This document shows positions 14,799 through 31,756 of a DNA stretch of 64,000 nt, in pieces; positions within the stretch are counted from its first letter, which is position 1; the number at the start of each line of letters is the position of its first letter. Location of the stretch: the NCBI RefSeq assembly GCF_014200435.1, contig NZ_JACHBR010000001.1, positions 5,584,001 to 5,648,000 of the forward strand. Reading direction: 5' to 3'. The notes beneath the pieces were generated by a model. It saw only the letters and a program-made list of their open reading frames with translations, had not been told where the DNA came from and ran no database searches. This DNA comes from Sphaerisporangium krabiense. GTDB taxonomy: Bacteria > Actinomycetota > Actinomycetes > Streptosporangiales > Streptosporangiaceae. The position numbers and the translations under genes were made by a program.

Positions 14799-15839
14799 TC
14801 AGGCGACCGGTGTCAGGTCCGCGGTGGCGGGGAGGCGGTTCATCAGGGGAGCGAAGGTGTCGATCACCGTGGACAGTTCTTCCAGGTCCTCCCGGACCAG
14901 CGCCTGGGGGCCGTCGCAGAGGGCGCGCTCGGGGTGGGGGTGCACGTCGATGATCACGCCGTCGGCGCCGGCGGCGATGGCCGCGCGGCTGAGCGGCATC
15001 ACCAGGTCGCGGCGCCCGCCGGAGTGGGAGGGGTCCACGATGACGGGCAGGTGGGACAGGCGCTGGGCCACGGGGACGGCCGAGACGTCCAGGGTGTTGC
15101 GGGTGGCGGTCTCGAACGTGCGGATGCCGCGCTCGCAGAGCACGATGTCGAGGTTGCCGCGCTGGGCGATGTACTCGGCGGCCATGAGCCACTCCTCGAT
15201 GGTGGCGCTCATGCCCCGCTTGAGCATGACGGGCCTGCCCGCCGCGCCCACCGCCTGCAGCAGCCCGAAGTTCTGGGCGTTGCGGGTGCCGACCTGCAGC
15301 ATGTCGGCGTAGGAGGCGACCAGCTCGACGTCGTGGGCGTCCACGACCTCGGTGACGATCGGCAGCCCGGTCTCGGCGCGCACGTCGGCGAGGATCCGCA
15401 GCCCGGCCTCGCCGAGCCCCTGGAAGGCGTACGGGGAGGTGCGCGGCTTGTAGGCGCCGCCGCGCAGCAGGCCCGCCCCGGCCGCCCGCGCCATCAGGGC
15501 CGCCTCCAGCGTCTGCTCGGGGGTCTCCACCGCGCACGGCCCGGCGATCAGCGTGAGCGTCCCGGGGCCGATCGGGACGCCGCCCACGCGCACGGTCGAG
15601 CGTTCGGGGTGGTTCTCCCTGCTCACGAGCTTGTAGGGCGTGCTGATGCGCACCACGTCGGCGACGCCGGGCATGCTCTTGAGGTTGAGCGTGGCGAAGC
15701 GGGTGACGTCCCCGACCAGCCCGATGATCGTGCGGCTGACGCCGCGGCTGACGAACGCCTCGCCGCCCGCCGCGGCGATCAGCGTGACGATGCCGTCGGC
15801 GTCCTGCCGGGTGGCGCCGGGACTCATGACGATGACCAT
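14799..15839 (-). CDS. aroF: 3-deoxy-7-phosphoheptulonate synthase (DAHP synthase)
   Basis: 346 residues. An N-terminal ferredoxin-like regulatory domain (about 1-70) precedes the type I-beta TIM barrel, with IAGPCAVE, RGGAYKPRTSPYAFQG, QVGTRNAQNF, LKRGMSATIEEW and VDPSHSGGRRD. It condenses PEP and erythrose-4-phosphate, the first step of aromatic amino acid synthesis. This class is usually controlled by an attached or partner regulatory domain; here the short N-terminal domain may serve. The gene lies behind a leader peptide rich in Tyr, Phe and Trp and a strong hairpin, so expression is probably set by aromatic amino acid supply. Confidence 0.95.
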   Translation of the reverse strand: MVIVMSPGATRQDADGIVTLIAAAGGEAFVSRGVSRTIIGLVGDVTRFATLNLKSMPGVADVVRISTPYKLVSRENHPERSTVRVGGVPIGPGTLTLIAGPCAVETPEQTLEAALMARAAGAGLLRGGAYKPRTSPYAFQGLGEAGLRILADVRAETGLPIVTEVVDAHDVELVASYADMLQVGTRNAQNFGLLQAVGAAGRPVMLKRGMSATIEEWLMAAEYIAQRGNLDIVLCERGIRTFETATRNTLDVSAVPVAQRLSHLPVIVDPSHSGGRRDLVMPLSRAAIAAGADGVIIDVHPHPERALCDGPQALVREDLEELSTVIDTFAPLMNRLPATADLTPVA

Positions 15840-15935: not shown

Positions 15936-15970
15936 CGAAGGCCCCGGGTCCGACGGACCCGGGGCCTTCG
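15936..15970 (-). terminator. Attenuator-type hairpin in aroF leader
   Basis: CGAAGGCCCCGGGTC and GACCCGGGGCCTTCG form a perfect 15-bp stem with a five-base loop. Reading toward aroF, it begins 12 bases after the leader-peptide stop and is followed by CGTTT. It ends 96 bases before the aroF start. Position between a short aromatic peptide frame and a biosynthetic gene suits a transcription attenuator. No alternative antiterminator pairing was worked out. Confidence 0.65.
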
Positions 15971-15982
15971 ATCACGTTTGCC

Positions 15983-16057
15983 TCAGCGCAGCGTCTGAGG
16001 GCGAACGGCCACCTCCCAGGGTCCGTCGCCATACCAAAACTCATACACGCTACGCAT
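15983..16057 (-). CDS. aroF leader peptide (24 aa, aromatic-rich)
   Basis: ATG 16057 opens a 24-codon frame ending at TGA 15983-15985. It contains the run VYEFWYGDGPW: two Tyr, one Phe and two Trp in 11 residues, in a genome where these are scarce. A TAGACT -10-like box (16066-16071) ends eight bases before the ATG and no ribosome site is present, so the leader is probably read from a leaderless transcript. The attenuator-type hairpin follows. Ribosome stalling at Tyr, Phe or Trp codons would then report supply to aroF. The role is inferred; the composition is directly visible. Confidence 0.7.
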   Translation of the reverse strand: MRSVYEFWYGDGPWEVAVRPQTLR

Positions 16058-16177
16058 CGCCGGAAAGTCTAACGCATCCGCGCGGACGGATCGGCGGCCC
16101 GGCCCCGCACGGGGGCGGAGTCCGTCAAGTGGGGTGCCGATGACCCGCCGTCACCACCGCGATGGCAGGATTGCTGC

Positions 16178-16810
16178 GTGCCGGATCCAAGCGAGGAAGA
16201 CCGACTGCCCCCCGGGCAGCACGTCCCACGCGGCCGCCCGGTCATCCACTACGGCCGGGTCCCGCAGTTCCGGCCGGAGCGCTGGAGTTTCCTGGTGTTC
16301 GGGGCCACCGCCTCGGGCGAGGAGGCCCGCTTCGGCTGGCCGGAGTTCTCCGCGCTGCCGCGCGTCACGGTCCTGGCCGACTTCCACTGCGTCACCAAGT
16401 TCTCGCTCATGGGGAACGAGTGGCGCGGCGTCTCGGCGGCCACCCTGATGCGCGCCGCGCCGCCCGCCGAGGGCGTACGCCACGTCATGATCTGGGGCGA
16501 GTACGGCTACAGCGCCAACATTCGCATGTCCGATTTCGCGCGCGATTCCACCCTCTTCGCCACGGAGTTGGACGAGAAGCCACTGAGCCCCGAGCGCGGC
16601 CACCCCGTGCGCGTCGTGGTGCCACACCTGTACGCGTGGAAGAGCGTGAAGTGGGTGCGCGCGGTCGAGTACATGATCGACGACCGTCGAGGGTTCTGGG
16701 AGGAGCGCGGATACCACAACGTGGGCGATCCCTGGCGCGAGCAGCGGTACTCCTACCAGGAGGACGCCGACGACGGTCCTTCGTGGTTCGGGCCCGATCA
16801 CGTTACGTGA
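16178..16810 (+). CDS. Sulfite oxidase-like molybdopterin oxidoreductase
   Basis: 210 residues, the size of the short YedY-like/sulfite-oxidase-fold proteins. The predicted molybdenum ligand Cys lies in DFHCVTKFS, followed by GVSAATLM; EYGYSANI and the AWKSVKWVRAVEYM region are typical of the molybdopterin-binding domain. No Tat signal or membrane segment is present, so it should be cytosolic. The substrate is not predictable. GTG 16178 is the start used; the nearby upstream ATG is in another frame. It lies 18 bases before a sensor kinase gene but has no evident functional tie to it. Confidence 0.82.
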   Translation: MPDPSEEDRLPPGQHVPRGRPVIHYGRVPQFRPERWSFLVFGATASGEEARFGWPEFSALPRVTVLADFHCVTKFSLMGNEWRGVSAATLMRAAPPAEGVRHVMIWGEYGYSANIRMSDFARDSTLFATELDEKPLSPERGHPVRVVVPHLYAWKSVKWVRAVEYMIDDRRGFWEERGYHNVGDPWREQRYSYQEDADDGPSWFGPDHVT

Positions 16811-30496: not shown

Positions 30497-31654
30497 TCAT
30501 CGATGGTGGGCGGCGAAGGCGGCGCGCGCCGTGCCGCCGCCGAAGCGCAGCGGCGAGCAGACCTCCGCCTCCCGCGCGTAGGGGCCGGGGCCGCCGTCCA
30601 GCTCGGCCATGAGCATCGCGGCGGTCAGCGGGGCCAGCAGGACGCCGCCGCGGTGGTGGCCGGTGGCGAGCAGCAGGCCCTCCATCGCCGCGGGCCCGAG
30701 CACGGGCAGGTTGTCCGGAGTGCCGGGGCGCAGGCCCGCGCACACGTCGGCGACCTCCAGCTCGGTCACGCCGGGGACCAGCTCGCGCGCGTCGCGCAGC
30801 AGCTCCCACAGGCCGCCGGCCGTCACGCGGGTGTCGAAGCCCATCTCCTCCTGGGTGGCGCCGAGCACGATCTCGCCGTCGCCGCGCGGCACCAGGTAGG
30901 CGCTGGACCCGTGGACCACGCCGCGCACGCAGTGCCCCAGGAACCCCGGGGCGCCGTGCAGGCGCATGATCTGCCCCTTCACCGGGCGCACGGGCGGCAG
31001 GACGCCGGGCGGCACCCCGTCGAGCGAGCCCGACCACGCCCCGGCGGCCAGCACCACGCGGTCGGCGGCGATCACCCGTCCCCCGCCGAGGCGCACCCCG
31101 CGCGCGGCGCCCCCCTCGACGGCCAGGCCCGCGACGTGCTCGGCGACCACGGTCGCGCCGCGGCGCGCCAGCGCGGCGAGCAGGGCGGCGGTGACCCGGC
31201 GCGGGTCCACCCACGCGTCGCCGGGGGCCAGCAGGCCGCCGCGCACGGCCGGGGCGAGCATCGGCTCCACCCGGCGGCACTCGCGCCCGGTCAGGCGCTC
31301 CACGCGCAGCCCGAGCCCCCCCATGAACCCGGCCATCTCGTCCAGGGCGGCCAGGTCGTCGGCGCCGAACGCGACGTCCAGGGTGCCCTCGGCGCGGTGG
31401 TCGACGTCCACGCCGGACTCGCGGGCCAGCTCGGCGGCGAAGGACGGCCACAGCTCCAGGGAGGCGAGGCCGAGCCGCAGCAGAGGCTCCTCGGTGTAGG
31501 AGACCTCGCTGACCGGGGCGAGCATGCCCGCGGCGGCGTGCGTGGCGCCCGAGCCGGGGGAGGGGTCGGCGAGGGTGACCGCGTGCCCGGCCTGCGCGGC
31601 GCGCCAGGCCACCGACAGGCCCGCCACGCCGCCGCCGACGACGACCACGTCCAT
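30497..31654 (-). CDS. thiO: Glycine oxidase ThiO
   Basis: 385 residues of the DAO family. [20 protein letters not shown] is the FAD dinucleotide fold, AAAGMLAP follows, and CAGLRPGTPDNLPVLG with ATGHHRGGVLLAP form the C-terminal FAD/substrate region. It oxidises glycine to dehydroglycine for ThiG. The start at 31654 has GGGAGCGAAC in front, which is also the 3' edge of the TPP riboswitch. It is the first gene of the thiO-thiS-thiG operon. Confidence 0.94.
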   Translation of the reverse strand: MDVVVVGGGVAGLSVAWRAAQAGHAVTLADPSPGSGATHAAAGMLAPVSEVSYTEEPLLRLGLASLELWPSFAAELARESGVDVDHRAEGTLDVAFGADDLAALDEMAGFMGGLGLRVERLTGRECRRVEPMLAPAVRGGLLAPGDAWVDPRRVTAALLAALARRGATVVAEHVAGLAVEGGAARGVRLGGGRVIAADRVVLAAGAWSGSLDGVPPGVLPPVRPVKGQIMRLHGAPGFLGHCVRGVVHGSSAYLVPRGDGEIVLGATQEEMGFDTRVTAGGLWELLRDARELVPGVTELEVADVCAGLRPGTPDNLPVLGPAAMEGLLLATGHHRGGVLLAPLTAAMLMAELDGGPGPYAREAEVCSPLRFGGGTARAAFAAHHR

Positions 31655-31659
31655 GTTCG

Positions 31660-31756
31660 CTCCCTTCGCCGGCATGATCCGGATCAGGTCTTTGCGGTCG
31701 AGGGCCGCCAGCCCTCCTCTCAGCCCGGTCTCGCCGGACTCCCGCGCGTCTGACGC
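31660..31756 (-). promoter_or_regulatory. TPP riboswitch (THI element)
   Basis: On the minus strand the conserved cores are all present in order: GGGCTGAGAGG (P2/P3 core), then GACCTGATCCGGATCATGCC (P4/P5 core), then GGCGAAGGGA closing P1. It ends right at the thiO ribosome site, so thiamine pyrophosphate binding probably hides the GGGAG and blocks translation of thiO. Boundaries are approximate by a few bases. Confidence 0.93.

Follow-up and report, generated by a model that had tools for sequence, protein, structure and literature searches.

The aroF gene of Sphaerisporangium krabiense is preceded on its own strand by a short frame rich in aromatic codons and by a hairpin, which raises the question of whether this DAHP synthase gene is tied to the supply of aromatic amino acids, and by what device. 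We analyzed the 64,000-nt stretch of DNA that carries the locus, here called the window, together with DNA upstream of aroF in relatives. Along the minus strand, a -10 box, a 24-codon ORF, a perfect hairpin, and aroF follow one another. Within this order we distinguish the following elements, in which the roles given to the RNA strands are predictions:

16066..16071, minus strand: -10 box TAGACT, 8 nt upstream of the leader ATG, within the relatives' consensus TGCGCTAnnnT
15983..16057, minus strand: leader peptide ORF MRSVYEFWYGDGPWEVAVRPQTLR, 24 codons plus stop, from ATG to TGA
16047..16055, minus strand: 5' strand of helix P1, GCGTAGCGT, starting within the start codon
16031..16045, minus strand: control codons Y5 E6 F7 W8 Y9 (TAT GAG TTT TGG TAT), assigned from the sequence and the relatives
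16019..16030, minus strand: segment 1, GGCGACGGACCC, codons G-D-G-P, 5' strand of both helix P2 and the antiterminator
16000..16008, minus strand: segment 2, CCGTTCGCC, 3' strand of P2
15986..15994, minus strand: 3' strand of P1, ACGCTGCGC, immediately 5' of the stop codon
15936..15970, minus strand: terminator hairpin, 16 bp with loop GTC, a perfect stem whose pairing is kept in relatives
15951..15960, minus strand: 3' strand of the antiterminator, GGGTCCGTCG, complementary to CGACGGACCC of segment 1 and made up of the end of the terminator 5' arm, the loop, and the first base of the 3' arm
14799..15839, minus strand: aroF, DAHP synthase, 346 aa, of the B. subtilis type (TIGR01361; type I-beta)

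An earlier note on this DNA had described an aromatic 24-codon minus-strand frame in front of a DAHP synthase gene, and both parts hold: the frame is as listed, and in a profile search the aroF product scored above cutoff for NF006421, TIGR01361 (DAHP_synth_Bsub), and NF009239, as well as for PF00793 and PF18152, with an N-terminal ferredoxin-like domain present. The AroF of Corynebacterium glutamicum we take to belong to another subclass (I-alpha). The same note had placed a perfect 15-bp hairpin 12 bases past the stop codon; the spacing and the perfection were correct, but the stem has 16 bp (15970-15936, with a 3-nt loop). The leader stop lies 143 nt from the aroF start. For the 128-nt leader, the computed folding energy is -72.9 kcal/mol (z -5.46), and none of 200 shuffled sequences folded as low. 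Among 388 ORFs on both strands of the window, the composite of an aromatic-rich ORF (15-34 codons with at least 4 F/W/Y in 7 residues), a stem (at least 10 bp within 75 nt), and a box (TANNNT 6-9 nt 5' of the start) was found once, at the aroF leader, and none of the 5770 ORFs of 15-34 codons in ten first-order Markov copies reached even four F/W/Y in seven. A consensus terminator scan matched no site at the leader hairpin, and the T-rich tail that follows it, TTCGCGTTT, is weak; in many relatives, TTT or TTTT occurs no more than about 10 nt from the stem.

A T-box or another known riboswitch was ruled out as the identity of the leader, since scanning the window with Rfam covariance models gave no match at gathering score there and a second comparison returned below-gathering hits alone. 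The one match in the window scan was a TPP riboswitch elsewhere (31644-31755, minus strand, 59.3 bits).

The start codon stands 6-9 nt past a TANNNT box in every one of the 107 curated leaders (81 of the window's family and 26 others), a set for which a TANNNT 5-9 nt before the start was required, a filter that removed none of the family loci. Among 33 GDGP-type leaders, the promoter consensus is TGCGCTAnnnT with no conserved -35 element, and the window promoter (16066-16076, minus strand) reads TGCGTTAGACT. Because so little room is left between the -10 box and the start codon, we infer leaderless initiation at the leader ATG, and the proposal of the earlier note that TAGACT places the transcription start near the ATG fits these distances. 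Leader transcripts of C. glutamicum aroR are likewise said to be leaderless. The TG of TGCGCTAnnnT sits further upstream than in the usual extended -10, and the motif might be either a binding site for an activator or an uncommon kind of promoter.

A search for AroF gave matches in 337 of 345 genomes of the order; in the class, 129 of 394 sampled genomes contained it. DNA upstream of 151 AroF loci was inspected (81 of the window's family and 70 of other families), namely the 30 best-scoring loci of the order search, the window's own included, 24 loci of the class search, and 97 chosen by hand across genera and families. An aromatic leader precedes aroF at all 81 family loci, the window's own included, covering 43 of 43 sampled genera of the family, of which 68 genera occur among the genomes of the order search. 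In other families of the class the leader is present at 28 of 70 loci and absent at 42; the 28 include two with a misplaced start that were counted by eye (L079 and L098) and lie outside the curated set, and two of the 70 regions are shorter than 150 nt (L068 and L085). Reading by eye revealed no leader at the non-family loci L053 and L059.

Since the leaders were picked as aromatic-rich frames, so that an out-of-frame start would count as a miss, the telling fact about translation is that none of the 81 family loci failed this pick, and we read the ORF as probably protein-coding. Fifty of the 81 family leaders contain a GGCGACGG core; in these, start and core are separated by 21, 24, 27, 30, or 36 and core and stop by 34, 37, 40, or 43, the phase of the latter distance being a consequence of how the ORF is defined, while the spacing from stop to terminator takes all values from 16 to 22 and all phases. 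The frame is thus conserved, with length variation in whole codons, as the earlier note had proposed to check.

Within the window's genus group, Sphaerisporangium, the leaders of L004, L010, L023, and L030 are identical to those on contigs of S. album, S. fuscum, S. perillae, and S. corydalis. A 20-base core pattern matched 100 stretches in a named collection, 99 of them bearing NCBI Streptosporangiaceae genus names and one from a MAG called Actinobacteria bacterium. As the family used in our counts holds more genera than NCBI Streptosporangiaceae, that name is safe for GDGP-type leaders only. An AroF start lies within 420 nt downstream in 95 of these stretches; among the other five, three are at a locus edge (L186, L203, and L253), one is masked (L199), and one is followed by something else (L219). 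This last, from Nonomuraea harbinensis, has leader and terminator with no AroF start within 420 nt, possibly a leader severed from its gene.

At some loci of two other families that lack the leader, other arrangements were seen. In family f11 (L053, L055, and L056), a TACNCT box stands directly 5' of the aroF start codon and there is no attenuator; aroF itself appears leaderless there, and the attenuator would have been lost or never gained. In family f21 (L110, L112, L116-L121, and L123), a recurring variable block resembling GTGACCnnnnnTGTGACCAAnnGTCTT was noticed by eye about 70-110 nt before aroF, perhaps an operator that replaces attenuation.

Across the leaders, three helices coevolve: P1, which joins the start and stop regions; P2, which joins segments 1 and 2; and the antiterminator, which joins segment 1 to the terminator 5' arm. 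P2 and the antiterminator both use segment 1, just past the aromatic codons, and exclude each other as in trp-type attenuation; the antiterminator strand within the leader is a feature that the earlier note lacked. We paired each leader's strand with its own partner or with that of another leader (99 distinct leaders, 500 permutations), and own partners were better for P1 (z -8.0), P2 (z -8.4), and the antiterminator (z -8.6), with none of 500 permutations reaching any of these values, significances that ignore shared ancestry and are too strong. In the same test, segment 2 paired with the arm gave z -4.5 and segment 2 with a stretch past the stop z -9.4, and two unrelated pairings gave -0.8 and 0.5. 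For the 26 leaders from outside the family, statistics are noisy, as the hairpin finder picked the wrong hairpin at some of these loci (e.g., L072, L078, and L101); P2 (z -4.1) and the pairing of segment 2 with the post-stop stretch (z -4.4) were recovered, the antiterminator was weaker (z -2.6, reached by 2 of 500), and no covariation was seen for P1 (z 0.2) or for segment 2 with the arm (z -0.2).

A count of pair changes on 25 close sequences found no pair changed on both sides, the sample being too uniform, and the alignment was hence widened to 57 family sequences. There, 91.0% of antiterminator cells are paired, with a covariation of 0.273 that none of 500 shuffles reached (0.137 +/- 0.013), and pairs change from G-C to C-G in 17 sequences and from A-U to G-C in 22. 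Changes on both sides occur at 3 of 7 pairs; 42 of 500 shuffles attained this count, and 309 of 500 attained the number of pair types; here, too, significances disregard shared ancestry and come out too strong. A shift by one column lowers antiterminator pairing to about 55%. P1 and P2 together are 75.3% paired and the terminator 98.1%, each above all shuffles in pairing and covariation. Examples of matched antiterminator strands are GACGGACCC with GGGTCCGTC in the window, ACCGGCCCGGG with CCCGGGCCGGT in L146, and CGGTCCGGG with CCCGGACCG in L127.

Hairpin, conserved leader, and coevolving helices together support the attenuator-type reading of the earlier note, and we consider it very probable that a trp-type, ribosome-mediated transcription attenuator controls aroF through the charging of tRNA-Phe, tRNA-Trp, and tRNA-Tyr, so that aroF would respond to all three aromatic amino acids. 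Transcription would start at or next to the leader ATG, as the position of the -10 box suggests, and a ribosome would load on the leaderless mRNA. With all three tRNAs charged, it would pass the aromatic codons onto the next segments, and P2 and P1, or the ribosome itself, would bar segment 1 from the terminator 5' arm, letting the hairpin form and stop transcription before aroF. When one tRNA is short, the ribosome would stall at codons 5-9, breaking P1 and P2 on their 5' sides; segment 1 would then pair with the terminator 5' arm, a pairing to which the covariation points, and transcription would presumably read through into aroF. A ribosome at the early aromatic codons would leave segment 1 largely open, and one further on would cover it.

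The control region also stands out in its codons. The 81 family leaders use TTT 95 times and TTC 57 times for Phe, and TAT 81 times and TAC 23 times for Tyr. In six CDSs of the window, including aroF, TTT accounts for 0 of 45 Phe codons and TAT for 0 of 38 Tyr codons, and the aroF genes of the 30 best-scoring loci of the order search have TTT at 0 of 175 and TAT at 1 of 150. These rare codons probably slow the passage through the control region or prevent that region from pairing.

Sequestration of the terminator arm was computed by equilibrium folding with the ribosome masked, as a mean over 72 family leaders (L126, with a short arm, was excluded). It was 0.83, 0.81, and 0.48 for a stall at the first, middle, and last aromatic codon, respectively, 0.36 with the ribosome on segment 1, 0.74 with no ribosome, and 0.85 with the ribosome at the stop; the corresponding values for the window leader are 0.77, 0.77, and 0.64, then 0.27, 0.77, and 1.0. 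Equilibrium folding thus fails to separate a stalled ribosome from none, both in the 72 leaders and in the window leader (0.77 in either state), and we rejected it as proof of the switch. Because sequestration is high with no ribosome and with the ribosome at the stop, thermodynamics alone does not explain the OFF state, for which the order of folding or the ribosomes that follow would have to account; here the attenuator model is at its weakest. Folding order is a likely reason, as most of P1 and P2 has formed (0.75 and 0.71) before the terminator arm is made.

The lower sequestration at the last aromatic codon speaks for attenuation governed chiefly by a single one of the amino acids, with the other aromatic codons as passengers. 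This we regard as unlikely, although the nearest precedent, the F-Y-F leader peptide aroR that governs aroF of C. glutamicum by transcriptional attenuation, is described in the accessible part of PMC11802643, reporting Neshat et al. 2014, as a case in which Phe limitation matters and Tyr availability does not. Against a single effector stands the composition of the leaders: all three residues, F, W, and Y, are present in 77 of the 81 family leaders (and in 16 of 26 curated leaders elsewhere), and TTT TGG TAT directly precedes GDGP in 45 of 49 GDGP leaders.

A response to all three aromatic tRNAs also has to be weighed against nascent-peptide arrest, in which FWYGDGP would stall the ribosome for a small molecule and not for an uncharged tRNA at the aromatic codons. 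The peptide VYEFWYGDGPW of the earlier note is present, but Y5 and W14 are not conserved and the core shared by GDGP-type relatives is FWYGDGP; in that group this core and the C-terminal LR are strongly conserved, which speaks for arrest. We nevertheless find arrest improbable: the residues after the aromatic run differ by clade (GDGP, GYRP, DRPG, or GAP) with pairing to the terminator arm retained, the first aromatic positions vary among relatives, and in one leader, L152, a frame change replaces LR by TCCAG and leaves P1 intact, a case in which, as far as sequence can tell, RNA is kept over peptide. Scarcely credible is an ordinary intergenic terminator beside a fortuitous or independently functional small protein, with aroF unregulated. 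A strong hairpin and a short ORF may coincide and the T-tract is weak, but the upstream neighbor (16178-16810, plus strand) runs divergently, no other gene was seen whose 3' end the hairpin would be, leader segment and hairpin arm coevolve, and the composite is unique in 64 kb.

The attenuator thus favored is confined to one of the three DAHP synthases of this genome. A covariance model of the leader found one strong site in the whole genome (113.6 bits; next 32.6), and aromatic leaders were lacking up to 500 nt from the matches of the other two synthases. One of these is a class II enzyme whose start is immediately preceded by a -10-like box; the other is a further PF00793 enzyme, apparently behind an upstream gene. 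With these two enzymes present as well, the pathway would stay open if only aroF were attenuated. Three distant paralogue controls (L161-L163) showed no leader (0 of 3) in about 200 nt of true upstream DNA, their matches starting at residue 55 or later. A trpE-like gene (a 795-aa open frame on contig C3; 277 bits, under the TIGR00564 cutoff) is preceded, at about 901-1000 of L270, by the leader MRNSSSVQWWRPA, with two Trp codons, then a hairpin, and with TAGCAT 7 nt 5' of its ATG, likely a Trp attenuator. It was found by eye, as the 3-of-7 aromatic filter missed it, and that same filter showed no leader at pheA. With a Trp-Trp leader at the trpE-like gene and an F/W/Y leader at aroF, leader codon content follows the pathway, Trp for the Trp branch and all three aromatics for the common step.

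In E. coli trpL and pheL, control codons are combined with a protector hairpin, an antiterminator, and a terminator that are mutually exclusive, and the aroF leader has the same set of parts. The E. coli leaders start from a Shine-Dalgarno sequence and carry one amino acid each, whereas the aroF leader would start leaderless and carries three; unlike in E. coli, its antiterminator strand begins right past the control codons, inside the ORF. C. glutamicum likewise has an aromatic leader before a DAHP synthase gene, predicted earlier according to the accessible part of PMC4046766; by published description, that leader reads F-Y-F, whereas ours holds F, W, and Y and a GDGP, GYRP, or DRPG segment that would form the antiterminator. 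The Corynebacterium ilvB-II motif, in the accessible part of PMC10272879, has a uORF over most of P1, then a terminator with an alternative antiterminator, and I, L, and V codons in one leader, and is reported in Corynebacterium species; it resembles the aroF leader in uORF, P1, and antiterminator and differs in serving the branched-chain pathway. A survey of Actinobacteria (PMC1262725) reports, in its accessible part, trp, cys, ilv, and leu elements and no conserved RNA structure upstream of phenylalanine or tyrosine operons; its trp attenuators follow classical attenuation on Trp only, whereas the aroF leader has F, W, and Y. No aroF element is named in the accessible parts of PMC2965389 and PMC4833913, and in the open-access literature, which leaves most subscription papers outside, we found no paper on such an aroF leader in the window's family. 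Attenuators of this kind are already known; what is new here, judged from sequence, is three aromatics in one leader, family-wide conservation, and a resolved antiterminator.

More tentatively, we suggest that these leaders may represent an ancient attenuator family of the class Actinomycetes. A single leaderless ORF at the entry step of the pathway would combine the charging states of all three aromatic tRNAs, and slow decoding of TTT and TAT would amplify small drops in charging. The coding sequence might then double as a switching RNA that couples start region, control codons, and stop region, and peptide conservation past the aromatic run would be mostly a by-product of RNA pairing.

In the literature searched, C. 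glutamicum was the only member of the Actinobacteria for which the common aromatic step was known to be attenuated, and a putative attenuator now stands at every examined aroF of the window's family and at some in further families. The family includes Nonomuraea, Streptosporangium, and Microbispora, which are known antibiotic producers. The aroF leader may serve as a small natural sensor for the three aromatic tRNAs together, as a system in which attenuation on leaderless mRNA can be tested, and as a means of influencing the supply of aromatic precursors.
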